Below, in pieces: positions 46,449-50,141 of a stretch of 64,000 nucleotides of DNA. The DNA is taken from the NCBI GenBank assembly GCA_029946105.1, contig JAQSDW010000225.1:1-64000 (forward strand), given 5' to 3'. Position numbers and translations under genes: made by a program. A model generated the notes under the pieces. That model did not search any database and was not told the origin of the DNA. It saw nothing but the letters and a program-made list of their open reading frames with translations. Every line of letters starts with the position of its first letter. Position 1 is the first letter of the stretch. This DNA is from Reyranella sp. Lineage in GTDB: Bacteria > Pseudomonadota > Alphaproteobacteria > Reyranellales > Reyranellaceae.

Positions 46449-46784
46449 TCACGCCGCCTTCTCCACGACGGCGCCGAGGGCGATGAACAGGCGCTCGCCC
46501 TCGATCCTTGTCGGAACCGTCCTTGCCGTGCCTTCGTCGGCACCGAGCGCCTTGCCCGTCTCGAGCGAGATCACCCAGTTGTGCAGCGGGCAGGTCACCG
46601 ACGTGCCATGCACGATGCCCTGCGACAGCGGCCCGCCCTTGTGCGGGCAATGGTCCTCGATCGCGAAGACCTGGCCTTCGGCCGTGCGGAACACCGCGAT
46701 CTTGCCCTCGGGCGTGTTCACGCAACGCGCGCCACGGCTTGGAATATCGTCGATCGAGGCGACTTCGACCCACTTCATGGTCAT
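46449..46784 (-). CDS. nirD: Assimilatory nitrite reductase small subunit
   Basis: A 111-residue Rieske-type protein. Cluster ligands C46 and H48 (CPHKGGPL), C65 and H68 (CPLHNW) are visible. It accompanies NirB in NADH-dependent reduction of nitrite to ammonium in the cytoplasm. The ATG (MTMKWVEVAS) shares one base with the nirB stop; an in-frame ATG follows two codons later. Confidence 0.93.
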   Translation of the reverse strand: MTMKWVEVASIDDIPSRGARCVNTPEGKIAVFRTAEGQVFAIEDHCPHKGGPLSQGIVHGTSVTCPLHNWVISLETGKALGADEGTARTVPTRIEGERLFIALGAVVEKAA

Positions 46785-49234
46785 CACTCGGCTGCCTCCG
46801 CAAAGCCAACCGTCGCCATCGGCCGGAACTCGTGCTTGTCCTTGCCCGAGACGCGCTCGGACCAAGGATCGACCTGGGCGAATTTCTGCGAGAACACGAA
46901 GCGGTCGAAATAGGCGCGCCTCTTTTCGCCATCCTGCACGATCTGGCGCCTGATCTCGTCGAGACCGACGCGCTTGGCCCATTTGTAGATGCGCTCAAGG
47001 TAACGTCCCTGCTCGCGATACATCTGGACAACGGCCACGATGTATTCGAGCGCCTCGTCCTCGGTCTTGACCTGACCCAGGATCTCCGTGCCCTTGATGT
47101 CGAGACCGGCGGCGCCGGCGAAATGGATCTCGTAGCCGGAATCGACGCAGATCACGCCCACGTCCTTGCAGGTGGCTTCGGCGCAGTTTCGCGGGCAGCC
47201 CGAGACCGCCATCTTGACCTTGGCCGGTGTCCACGAACCCCACATGAACTTCTCGATGCGGATGCCGAGGCCCGTCGAGTCCTGCGTGCCGAAGCGGCAC
47301 CAGTCGGTGCCGACGCAGGTCTTCACCGTGCGCAGGCCCTTGGCATAGGCATGGCCGGAGACGAAGCCCGCCTTGCCGAGGTCGGCCCACACCGCGGGCA
47401 GGTCTTCCTTCCGGACACCCAGCATGTCGATGCGCTGGCCGCCTGTCACCTTGACCGTCGGGATGGCGAACTTGTCGACGACATCGGCGATCGCCCGCAG
47501 CTCGTTGGAACTGGTGACCCCGCCCCACATGCGCGGCACCACCGAGAAGGTGCCGTCCTTCTGGATGTTGGCGTGGGCGCGCTCGTTGATGAAGCGCGAC
47601 TGGTAATCGTCGGCATATTCGTCGGGCCAATCGCTGACCAGGTAGTAGTTGAGCGCCGGCCGGCACTTGGCGCAGCCGCACGAGGTCTTCCACTCGAGCT
47701 CCTGCATGACCGAGGCCATCGTCTTCAGCGACTTCGCGACGATCAGGCGGCGGACGTCGTCGTGACCCAGCGCCGTGCAGGCGCACATCGGCTGGACGGC
47801 GGTGCGGTTGAAGGCGTCGCCCAGGGTCAGCTCCATGAGCTGTTCGACGAGGCCGGTGCAGGTGCCGCACGAGGCCGAGGCCTTGGTGTGGGCGCGCACC
47901 TCATCCAGCGTCGTGAGACCCTTCGCCTTGATCGTGCCCGTGACCTTGCCCTTGCAGATGCCATTGCAGCCGCAGATCTCGGCGTCGTCCGGCAGCGCGG
48001 CGACGGCAGCCCCGGGATCGCGCGCGCCGCCGCCCTGGAAAGCCGGCCCGAAGATCAGCGTGTTACGCATCTCCGAGATGTTCGTCGACTTCTTCTTGAG
48101 GTCGTTGAACCAGGCGCCGTCGCCCACCTCGCCGAACAGCACGGTACCGATGATCCGGTTGTCCTTCAGGATCAGGCGCCTGTAGACGCCGGCCGAAGCG
48201 TCGCGCAGCACGATCTCCTCGCGGTCGTCGCCGTCGGCGAAGTCGCCCAGCGAATAGACGTCGATACCGGTGACCTTGAGCTTGGTCGGCGTGTCGATGT
48301 GGACGAACCGCGCGGCCTCGTCGCCAGCGAGGTTGGCCGCAATGACGCGCGCCATCTCGTAGAGTGGCGCCACGAGACCGTAGACGTGGTCACCGATCTC
48401 GGCGCATTCGCCCAGGGCAAAGATATCCGGATCGGAGGTCCGCATGGCGTGGTCGACGACGATGCCGCGATTGATCGTGAGGCCTGCAGCCTTGGCCAGC
48501 GTCGCATTCGGACGGATGCCGGCGGCCATGATGACCAGCGTCGCCGGGATGGTGGTGCCGTCGGCGAGTTCGACGCCCTCGACCTTGCCGTTACCCAGGA
48601 TCTTCCTGGTGTTGGCCTTGGTGAGAACCTTGATGCCGCGCTCCTCGAGCGCCTTCTGCAGCAGATAGCCGGCGGCGGGATCGAGTTGCCGTTCCATCAG
48701 GGTCGGCATCAGATGAACGACTGTGACGTCCATGCCCTGTGCCTGCAGGCCGGCCGCGGCTTCGAGGCCGAGCAGGCCGCCGCCGATCACGACTGCCTTG
48801 GCGCGCGACTGGGCGGCCAGCAGCATGGCATTCACGTCGTCGAGGTCGCGGTAGGTGAGCACACCGGCGAAGTCGTGGCCGGGCACTGGGATGATCAGCG
48901 GATTGGAGCCGGTGGCGATGACGAGCTTGTCGTAGCTCTCCGTCACGCCTTCCGAGGACGTTACGGTCTTGGCAGCGCGATCGATCGCCTCGATCTTGTG
49001 GCCCTTGTAGAGAGTGATGCCGTTGCGAACGTACCAGCCGTCGCCGTGGATGATGATCTGTTCATAGTCCTTTTCACCCGACAGCACGGGCGAGAGCATG
49101 ATCCGGTCGTAGTTCACCCGGGGCTCGGCATTGAAAATCGTCACCTGATAGCGATCAGGTGCGGCCTCGAGCAGATGATCCAGCATGCGCCCCGGGGCCA
49201 TGCCGTTTCCGATGATGACGAGCTTCTCAGTCAT
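46784..49234 (-). CDS. nirB: Assimilatory nitrite reductase large subunit, NAD(P)H-dependent
   Basis: An 816-residue flavo-iron-sulfur-sirohaem enzyme reducing nitrite to ammonium. The FAD/NAD domain is at 1-300 (KLVIIGNGMAPGRMLDHLL, VVIGGGLLGLEAAAGLQ). BFD-like [2Fe-2S] cysteines are in CGCNGICKG and CGTCTGLVEQ. A further CxC..C is in SCGCAKCRP. The sirohaem/4Fe-4S ligands are in CVGTDWCRFGTQDS and SGCPRNCAEATCKDVG. Start at MTEKLVIIGN. It is preceded by a structured leader with a terminator (49256-49369) and a sigma-54-type promoter, so expression is probably set by nitrogen limitation and nitrate/nitrite. Confidence 0.96.
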   Translation of the reverse strand: MTEKLVIIGNGMAPGRMLDHLLEAAPDRYQVTIFNAEPRVNYDRIMLSPVLSGEKDYEQIIIHGDGWYVRNGITLYKGHKIEAIDRAAKTVTSSEGVTESYDKLVIATGSNPLIIPVPGHDFAGVLTYRDLDDVNAMLLAAQSRAKAVVIGGGLLGLEAAAGLQAQGMDVTVVHLMPTLMERQLDPAAGYLLQKALEERGIKVLTKANTRKILGNGKVEGVELADGTTIPATLVIMAAGIRPNATLAKAAGLTINRGIVVDHAMRTSDPDIFALGECAEIGDHVYGLVAPLYEMARVIAANLAGDEAARFVHIDTPTKLKVTGIDVYSLGDFADGDDREEIVLRDASAGVYRRLILKDNRIIGTVLFGEVGDGAWFNDLKKKSTNISEMRNTLIFGPAFQGGGARDPGAAVAALPDDAEICGCNGICKGKVTGTIKAKGLTTLDEVRAHTKASASCGTCTGLVEQLMELTLGDAFNRTAVQPMCACTALGHDDVRRLIVAKSLKTMASVMQELEWKTSCGCAKCRPALNYYLVSDWPDEYADDYQSRFINERAHANIQKDGTFSVVPRMWGGVTSSNELRAIADVVDKFAIPTVKVTGGQRIDMLGVRKEDLPAVWADLGKAGFVSGHAYAKGLRTVKTCVGTDWCRFGTQDSTGLGIRIEKFMWGSWTPAKVKMAVSGCPRNCAEATCKDVGVICVDSGYEIHFAGAAGLDIKGTEILGQVKTEDEALEYIVAVVQMYREQGRYLERIYKWAKRVGLDEIRRQIVQDGEKRRAYFDRFVFSQKFAQVDPWSERVSGKDKHEFRPMATVGFAEAAE

Positions 49235-49255
49235 GTGCCTGGCGGATCCCAAAAC

Positions 49256-49320
49256 AAAAAAGCTGCCCAACAGACCCTCGCCCCCTCGACAAAAAGGGAC
49301 GAATAGCCGTTGGCAGCTTT
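49256..49320 (-). terminator. Intrinsic terminator in the nirB leader (attenuator)
   Basis: On the minus strand AAAGCTGCCAAC pairs with GTTGGGCAGCTTT (one bulged G), a 12-bp stem closing a long loop, followed by six T residues and TTGTTTT context. It ends only 22 bases before the nirB ATG, so readthrough must be regulated for nirB to be expressed. Confidence 0.82.
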
Positions 49321-49325
49321 GCCTG

Positions 49326-49369
49326 GGGCGCCCGCCATTGGACGCCCATTAACGAGACTTCATTGCCTC
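49326..49369 (-). promoter_or_regulatory. Two-hairpin ANTAR/NasT-type RNA element in the nirB leader
   Basis: Hairpin 1 (49354-49369): stem GAGGC with GTCTC (one G-T pair), hexaloop AATGAA. Hairpin 2 (49326-49347): an 8-bp stem GGGCGTCC with GGGCGCCC (one G-T pair), hexaloop AATGGC. Both loops have A1 and G4, the known recognition features of ANTAR-domain antiterminators such as NasT/NasR. They are separated by 6 bases and followed within 6 bases by the terminator. No nasT gene lies in the window. Confidence 0.75.
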
Positions 49370-49380
49370 ACCAAGTACAG

Positions 49381-49396
49381 TGCATGAACCGTGCCA
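49381..49396 (-). promoter_or_regulatory. Sigma-54 promoter of nirBD
   Basis: On the minus strand TGGCACGGTTCATGCA fits the -24/-12 consensus TGGCACG-N4-TTGCA with a single change. The expected start site is near 49370, the base before hairpin 1 of the leader. An NtrC enhancer was not identified with confidence. Confidence 0.8.
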
Positions 49397-49541
49397 AATC
49401 GAGGGAGCCAATAACCTTCGATACCAGCGGGCTCGGCGCCGGCGGTCGGGAATGACCTCCGAATTTCTTGGCGAATTATTGAGCATGCCGTGCCATCGAT
49501 TGCCTCTTTGCGTTGTCTGGAGACGATCCTATGAGAATGGA

Positions 49542-50141
49542 ATGACTCCCCTTTCGCCACGCTTCCAAGCCGTCATCGACGACATCGATGCCGCCAACGC
49601 ACAGGATCCCCGGCAGGACAGCGTGGCCGGCACGCTCCGTCCGCGCGAAGTCGTCTATTCGGAGCGGATGTCGGAATGCCTGGCCCTACTCTATCCGGAG
49701 GCTTCGGAAGCCCTGCGCATCGCCGCCCGCGCCCAGCACATCTGCCGCTGGCAAATCCCTCGGCAAAACTATCGGCTTGGCCGCGAAGGCTACAATGCCT
49801 GGCGATCCGCTTGCCGCGATCATCACGGAGCGCTCACCTCGGCGATCATGCGCCGTCACGGCTATGCCGAAAACGAGATCGCGCAGGCCGCAAAAATCAT
49901 CCGGAAAGAGCAGCTCAAGCGCGATCCCGAGAGCCAGGCTCTCGAGAATGTCGTGGCCGTCGTCTTCGTCCAGCACTACCTGGACGAATTCGTGGCCGAC
50001 CACAAAGACTACGACGACGCCAAACTCGCCGACATCCTGAAGAAGACGCTGCGCAAGATGGACCCGACAGGCCATGCCGCGGTCCTCGCGCTGCCGCTGC
50101 CGGCGGGGACCGTGCGCATCATCGATATCGCGCTGAAGTAA
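49542..50141 (+). CDS. DUF4202 family protein
   Basis: 199 residues from MTPLSPRFQAVIDDIDAANAQDP. Family phrases are YSERMSECLALLYPEASEALRIAARAQHI, CRWQIPRQNYRLGREGYNAWR and IIRKEQLKRDPESQALENVVAVVF. Function unknown; the His/Asp/Arg-rich helical pattern suggests a hydrolase-like fold, but this is a guess. It is divergent from nirB, and an association of this family with nitrate/nitrite assimilation loci is plausible. The chosen ATG lies just after GAATGG; in-frame codons upstream overlap the nirB promoter region. Confidence 0.8.
   Translation: MTPLSPRFQAVIDDIDAANAQDPRQDSVAGTLRPREVVYSERMSECLALLYPEASEALRIAARAQHICRWQIPRQNYRLGREGYNAWRSACRDHHGALTSAIMRRHGYAENEIAQAAKIIRKEQLKRDPESQALENVVAVVFVQHYLDEFVADHKDYDDAKLADILKKTLRKMDPTGHAAVLALPLPAGTVRIIDIALK

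Follow-up and report, generated by a model that had tools for sequence, protein, structure and literature searches.

A putative sigma-54-driven, NasT-type antitermination leader with three hexaloops upstream of nirBD in Reyranella

ANTAR proteins recognize A1 and G4 in tandem RNA hexaloops, the last of which overlaps a terminator (PMC3369931, PMC8934654, PMC7496416), and SELEX with NasR points to a C:G closing pair below the loop (PMC7496416). Nitrate or nitrite releases the ANTAR protein NasT from NasS (PMC3795266, PMC6759348). Pseudomonas NalA, which lies before nirBD, is described as combining sigma-54/NtrC initiation with NasT antitermination (Romeo 2012; Nie 2024, via PMC12830290, PMC3973561; PMC9196836). 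By this precedent, AND control by the two inputs is already established for a nirBD leader.

Here we analyzed 64,000 nucleotides of a Reyranella genome (the window) and its nirBD leader, which we read, at a probability of about 0.88, as a sigma-54-driven, NasT-type (ANTAR) antitermination leader with a switch formed by its second and third hairpins, H2 and H3. The reading is based on the sequence and its conservation, covariation in the first hairpin (H1) and in H2-H3, the overlap of H3 with the terminator, the presence of NasT, NasS, RpoN and NtrC in the genome, and a sister leader; from these we infer where transcription starts, that NasT binds, that nitrate acts on the leader, that NtrC is needed and what H1 does. 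NalA shares with the Reyranella locus the sigma-54/NtrC promoter, a terminator-bearing leader RNA, NasS-NasT antitermination and the nirBD operon itself. The Klebsiella oxytoca nasF/NasR system likewise joins Ntr-controlled initiation to nitrate-dependent ANTAR antitermination at A1/G4 hexaloops with C:G closing pairs, but NasR is a one-protein NIT-ANTAR sensor, whereas the putative Reyranella NasT is a receiver-ANTAR protein with a separate NasS. No NIT-ANTAR one-component regulator was found in the genome, where the only ANTAR protein carries a receiver domain. The Enterococcus EutV attenuators also have tandem A1/G4 hexaloops with the last overlapping the terminator; they differ in having two hexaloops, an ethanolamine signal and a phosphorylated receiver, where NasT has a serine (in 'VVSI').

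Organization of the nirB leader

The genes for the large and small subunits of NADH-dependent assimilatory nitrite reductase, nirB (46784..49234; NCBIfam TIGR02374, 891 bits) and nirD (46449..46916; NCBIfam TIGR02378, score above cut-off), lie on the minus strand, and a DUF4202 gene (49542-50141, plus strand) diverges from them, sharing the intergenic region. The closest named relative of nirB is that of Reyranella aquatilis (92%). Reading toward nirB on the minus strand, we found a sigma-54 box, H1, H2, H3, a terminator with its U6 tract, and then the nirB ATG.

The predicted sigma-54 (-24/-12) promoter, TGGCACGGTTCATGCA (49381..49396, minus strand), departs from TGGCACG-N4-TTGCW at one position, is the only site with at most one mismatch in the 64-kb window, and places the predicted +1 at 49370. 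A one-mismatch box before nirBD had been claimed in a preliminary description of this locus, and it is conserved in relatives: TGGCACGGTTCATGC, identical in 10 of 11, is the most conserved block of the upstream and promoter region among Reyranella nirB promoters. The box by itself is little proof, since TGGCACG-N5-TGCW has 8 matches in the 5.6-Mb genome against 26 for a reversed-pattern control. Above the box there is otherwise little conservation in these promoters except for a 17-bp element, TGCTCAATAATTCGCCA (49469..49485, minus strand; consensus TGCCCAATAATTNGCCA), which keeps its sequence and its position about 87-90 bp upstream of the box. This element is a candidate enhancer site, perhaps for NtrC, and fits the published NtrC consensus weakly. 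A search for NtrC sites upstream of nirB gave several NtrC-like matches and no good fit, the matches being neither strong nor consistently placed.

H1, GAGGC-AAUGAA-GUCUC (49354..49369, minus strand), begins at about +2 and carries the first A1/G4 hexaloop; H2, GGGCGUCC-AAUGGC-GGGCGCCC (49326..49347, minus strand), carries the second. The preliminary description had located and folded these two correctly, and both hairpins are conserved in relatives. It also took them as a two-hairpin ANTAR attenuator; an attenuator before nirBD stands, but the pair that would exclude the terminator is H2-H3 rather than H1-H2, a third A1/G4 hexaloop, H3 (GGC-AAAGCU-GCC; 49312..49323, minus strand), having been missed. 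H2 and H3 would be the two hairpins of a dual-hexaloop core, with H3 the proposed antiterminator hairpin. In the window and in relatives, H1, H2 and H3 form a tandem series (at least two hairpins, stems of at least 3 bp, A1/G4 hexaloops), and in the window a C:G pair closes each loop.

The intrinsic terminator (49256..49320, minus strand), identified by its fold and conservation, consists of a long bulged stem (49320-49259; -35.5 kcal/mol when folded) followed by UUUUUU (49261-49256). A terminator with six U residues had been placed 22 bases before the nirB ATG; the terminator and its conserved U tract hold up, and the gap between the end of the tract (49256) and the ATG (49234) is 21 bases. 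A simple terminator scan did not list this terminator, presumably on account of the bulges in its long stem. The leader as a whole is more stable than 200 of 200 shuffled versions (z -4.2).

Of the three hairpins only H3 (49323-49312) overlaps the 5' arm of the terminator, which starts at 49320. When H3 was enforced, the lower stem of the terminator was lost and the fold reached -24.1 rather than -36.1 kcal/mol, a cost of about 12 kcal/mol; a protein holding H3 would therefore block termination. In the window H3 has 3 bp and -2.8 kcal/mol, and the unconstrained fold favors the terminator, so that H3 formation requires protein or timing. In folds of the growing RNA, H1 and H2 formed immediately. 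The position of H3 folded best as a small hairpin for as long as the terminator lacked its 3' arm; once this arm had been made, the terminator took over. A switch hairpin hidden within a terminator in this way is readily overlooked by a reader or a folding program.

As a separate observation, in the folds of some relatives a UGGCG in the H2 loop and 3' arm (window 49331-49337) pairs with a CGCCA just before the nirB start (49235-49250), which could be a translational layer or chance.

Regulators and a second leader in the same genome

The genome has one ANTAR gene (74.5 bits), encoding a 195-aa receiver-ANTAR protein; among PDB structures it matches ANTAR response regulators and NasR best. Next to its gene lie those for an NMT1_2 protein matching the nitrate-binding NrtA, for nrtBC and for a NirA-family reductase, and we read the first two genes as a nasT-nasS pair encoding a NasT-like protein and NasS. 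The genome search for nasS and nasT that had been proposed earlier accordingly returns one NasT-like ANTAR gene, adjacent to NasS. When the protein is aligned to PDB 6wsh, the aspartate of 'LMDI' is replaced by serine ('VVSI'), and a serine at the usual phosphorylation site would fit control by release from NasS rather than by phosphorylation. There is one copy of rpoN, and NtrC scores above the cut-off and has an NtrX-like neighbor; from the presence of NtrC we infer that it controls the nirB promoter. A consensus sigma-54 box (G000:C34:17432-17447) precedes the matched segment of rpoN by about 1 kb on its strand, and rpoN might be autoregulated through it.

A second leader with a sigma-54 box and three hexaloops lies between nasT and nasS (L002:9300-9450; G000:C83). 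Its box is TTGGCACATTTCCTGC; its hexaloop hairpins are, in order, GAGCUCCC-AAUGGU-GGGGGUUC, GGCAGGCC-AAUGGC-GGUCUGCC and GGAC-AACGAC-GUCC; and its terminator is GACGUCCUG...CAGGACGUC-U8, which the third hexaloop overlaps as in the nirB leader. Downstream follow nasS, nrtA, nrtB (TIGR01183), nrtC (TIGR01184), the NirA-family reductase (PRK09567) and a flavoprotein of the sulfite-reductase type. Since nasT has its own sigma-54-type box, TGGCACAGAAGTTGC (L002:8520-8535), which relatives also retain (TGGCACGGAAGTTGC in several of them), three sigma-54-type promoters serve the pathway when the boxes of both leaders are counted.

Conservation in Reyranella and Rhizobiales

In six Reyranella nirB leaders the box and all three hairpins are retained. 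Their terminators have an invariant outer arm and U tract, and an inner stem that covaries, being altered on both sides. H3 is present in seven of seven nirB leaders of type A. The preliminary description had staked its reading on an ANTAR regulator in the genome and on retention of the loops and terminator in relatives, and both are found. After the initial six, further leaders from the genus joined the comparison. Across 19 distinct H1 sequences, taken from both nirB and nasS leaders, 98.9% of stem cells are paired and 33 double changes occur; the covariation score of the stem is 0.91, compared with 0.23 in shuffles. The loop has A1 in 18 of the 19 and A2 and G4 in all, leaving positions 3, 5 and 6 free, and the C:G closing pair is constant (19/19); some H1s were recognized partly by their loop, so these loop counts are not fully independent. 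Choosing the best hairpin by energy alone gave the same hexaloop in most leaders, in some of them closed by an additional A-U pair, and a different hairpin in a few. As judged from these alignments, Reyranella leaders typically carry H1 as an additional A1/G4 hairpin.

Several leaders depart from this pattern. Two nasS leaders (G036 and G072) lack H1 and have H2-H3, with the +1 2-3 nt before H2. In the nirB leader of G010, the loop of H1 is not of A1/G4 type and position 1 of H3 is a G; in that of G072, position 1 of H1 is a G. Reyranella genomes with a 75% identical NirB (L009-L012) have A1/G4 hexaloops and a TGGCCCG-type sigma-54 box in related, divergent leaders, in which an intrinsic terminator of comparable form was not evident. 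One genome (G084) carries two nirB leaders with differing H1 loops (L152 on C90, L153 on C355), reflecting two copies or mixed strains. Another three-hexaloop leader (G010:C759; L174:3477-3519) precedes a membrane protein that, from its translation, resembles the formate/nitrite transporter family.

For wider searches we built R1, a covariance model of H2-H3 trained on sequences chosen for these hairpins, both leaders of the genome included; the C:G closing pair of H2 and H3 is present in 12 of 12 training sequences, which were selected with that feature in mind. Running a covariance model on the leader had been suggested at the outset, and R1 matches the window at 49312-49347 with 58.1 bits, a score that is not independent because the window is a training sequence. 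Elsewhere in the genome R1 found nothing convincing beyond the nirB and nasT/nasS leaders; a third match (C242, 28.4 bits), which has no A1/G4 H2, sigma-54 box or terminator, was dropped. Strong matches occur in 22 of 49 ANTAR-positive genus members and in 0 of 16 ANTAR-negative ones (Fisher p = 4e-4; like the other counts over relatives given here, uncorrected for kinship). Class-wide, matches with a promoter and U tract extend down to about 33 bits, and four matches below that level, which lack a promoter and looked like coding sequence, were rejected. A leader from another family (L196; G259:C1:2149845) has H2-H3 and a possible third A1/G4 hexaloop upstream, GATCGC-AAAGTT-GCGATT.

Applied to 79 Rhizobiales nirB loci, R1 finds its element upstream in 55. 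A scan for A1/G4 hexaloops with C:G closing pairs in Rhizobiales nas leaders gave H2 as GGCGUCC-AACGGC-GGGCGCC and H3 as CAGC-AAAGCC-GCUG, the Rhizobium H3 homologue having 4 bp and lying inside the 5' arm of the terminator. These nas-operon leaders match the Reyranella arrangement both in the succession of elements (a sigma-54 box, a hairpin at +1, H2-H3, then a terminator) and in their spacing; they differ in that the first hairpin, just downstream of the predicted +1, has a short non-ANTAR loop of 3-5 bases, and in that the leader heads the nas operon with nirB further downstream. The distance from +1 to H2 is 20-25 nt in nearly all Rhizobiales loci with a recognizable sigma-54 box (30 in L095, 4 in L103) and 23 in the window. 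Shared by Reyranella and Rhizobiales nas leaders, H2-H3 is thus the conserved dual-hexaloop unit and likely the antiterminator core. A +1 hairpin is a general feature, with a loop that is ANTAR-like in Reyranella. That the leader starts directly on its first hairpin, singled out earlier as unusual, proves to be the rule in both groups.

These comparisons bear on the alternative in which H1 and H2 serve as the ANTAR pair, the 3 bp of H3 are fortuitous, and NasT bound to H1-H2 would sterically stop the adjacent terminator. We consider this improbable. Both hairpins are stable, with A1/G4 loops and C:G closing pairs, H1 covaries strongly, and only a few bases separate H2 from the terminator base; however, it is in H2 and H3 that the Rhizobiales keep A1/G4, their first hairpin being short-looped, the two Reyranella nasS leaders without H1 retain H2-H3 with the +1 beside H2, and the published model wants a second hairpin that overlaps the terminator, which H2 does not.

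Proposed mechanism and relation to known RNAs

With H2-H3 as the switch, transcription by sigma-54 RNA polymerase would begin at about 49370, directly at H1, with NtrC its most likely activator when nitrogen is limiting. Without nitrate or nitrite, NasT would be held by NasS and most transcripts would stop at the U6 terminator. When either is present, free NasT would bind the A1/G4 hexaloops as they emerge, and NasT on H2 and H3 would keep H3 closed, so that the terminator arms could not pair and polymerase would read into nirBD. H1, as a third hexaloop, might allow early loading of NasT or offer a site for a second dimer. The logic is most likely sigma-54/NtrC initiation AND NasT antitermination.

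A more specific role for the third hexaloop is tentative, and we think it rather doubtful: H1-H2 may be a complete, terminator-independent NasT site, serving a purpose beyond the two-hexaloop design. Such a site could preload NasT before H3 emerges, lowering the nitrate threshold, or could make terminated leaders into NasT decoys that couple the nirBD and nasS operons.

It is very unlikely that readthrough is of secondary importance and that the leader mainly yields a short, stable RNA acting in trans, either as an sRNA or as a decoy for NasT. A terminated product would still expose H1 and H2 and so resemble EutX, the dual-hexaloop RNA bound by EutV (PMC8934654), and Pseudomonas NalA is described as a small RNA (PMC3973561, PMC9196836), but the terminator and H3 immediately precede nirB and are conserved along with it, and the layout is common to two operons of the genome. 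Least credible is a plain terminator with 5' stabilizing hairpins and no ANTAR-protein control. The Rhizobiales do have a +1 hairpin without an ANTAR loop, which may help to stabilize the RNA, but the hexaloops hold positions 1, 2 and 4 constant against variable stems and variable positions 3, 5 and 6, and strong matches in the genus are confined to genomes with an ANTAR gene.

Two Rfam families resemble the antitermination leader proposed here. The consensus of narK RNA (RF03032) opens with a sigma-54 box and has H2-like and H3-like hexaloops, with no H1 in the model; its gathering score of 43.2 bits was not reached by the window (15.0), by the nasS leader of the same genome (28.9) or by the relatives G036 (42.6) and G072 (40.1). 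The annotated RF03032 structure includes the first of its two hexaloop hairpins only (L180:974-1042; L002:9363-9401). For RF00625 (Pseudomonas sRNA P11; gathering score 70 bits), the window gave no match and the nasS leader 20.6 bits. Matched to L002:9289-9437, the P11 model runs from a sigma-54-like stretch through a CAACGauG loop and GGAC-AAAGGC-GUCC to a terminator, the order seen in the leaders here, and P11 could itself be a NasT leader of the NalA kind. This NalA-related consensus, tentatively the same RNA, has two hexaloops where Reyranella has three, and comes from another bacterial class with divergent sequence. The comparison suggests that the narK RNA and P11 entries are the same kind of ANTAR leader, with promoter DNA within the models. 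At the gathering score only tRNAs were found in the window, and permissive matches to mir-373 and other families were taken as chance.

The Reyranella leader is a known kind of system in a three-hexaloop variant, the number of hexaloops being what sets it apart from such leaders as they have been described; the preliminary description had already placed it in a known family, and NalA supplies the same sigma-54/NtrC and NasT combination before nirBD. On our reading, NasT-type antitermination would also operate in Reyranella and act on two operons there. The three-hexaloop leaders of this genus, set beside their two-hexaloop relatives, would offer a natural comparison for how ANTAR dimers choose their hairpins.
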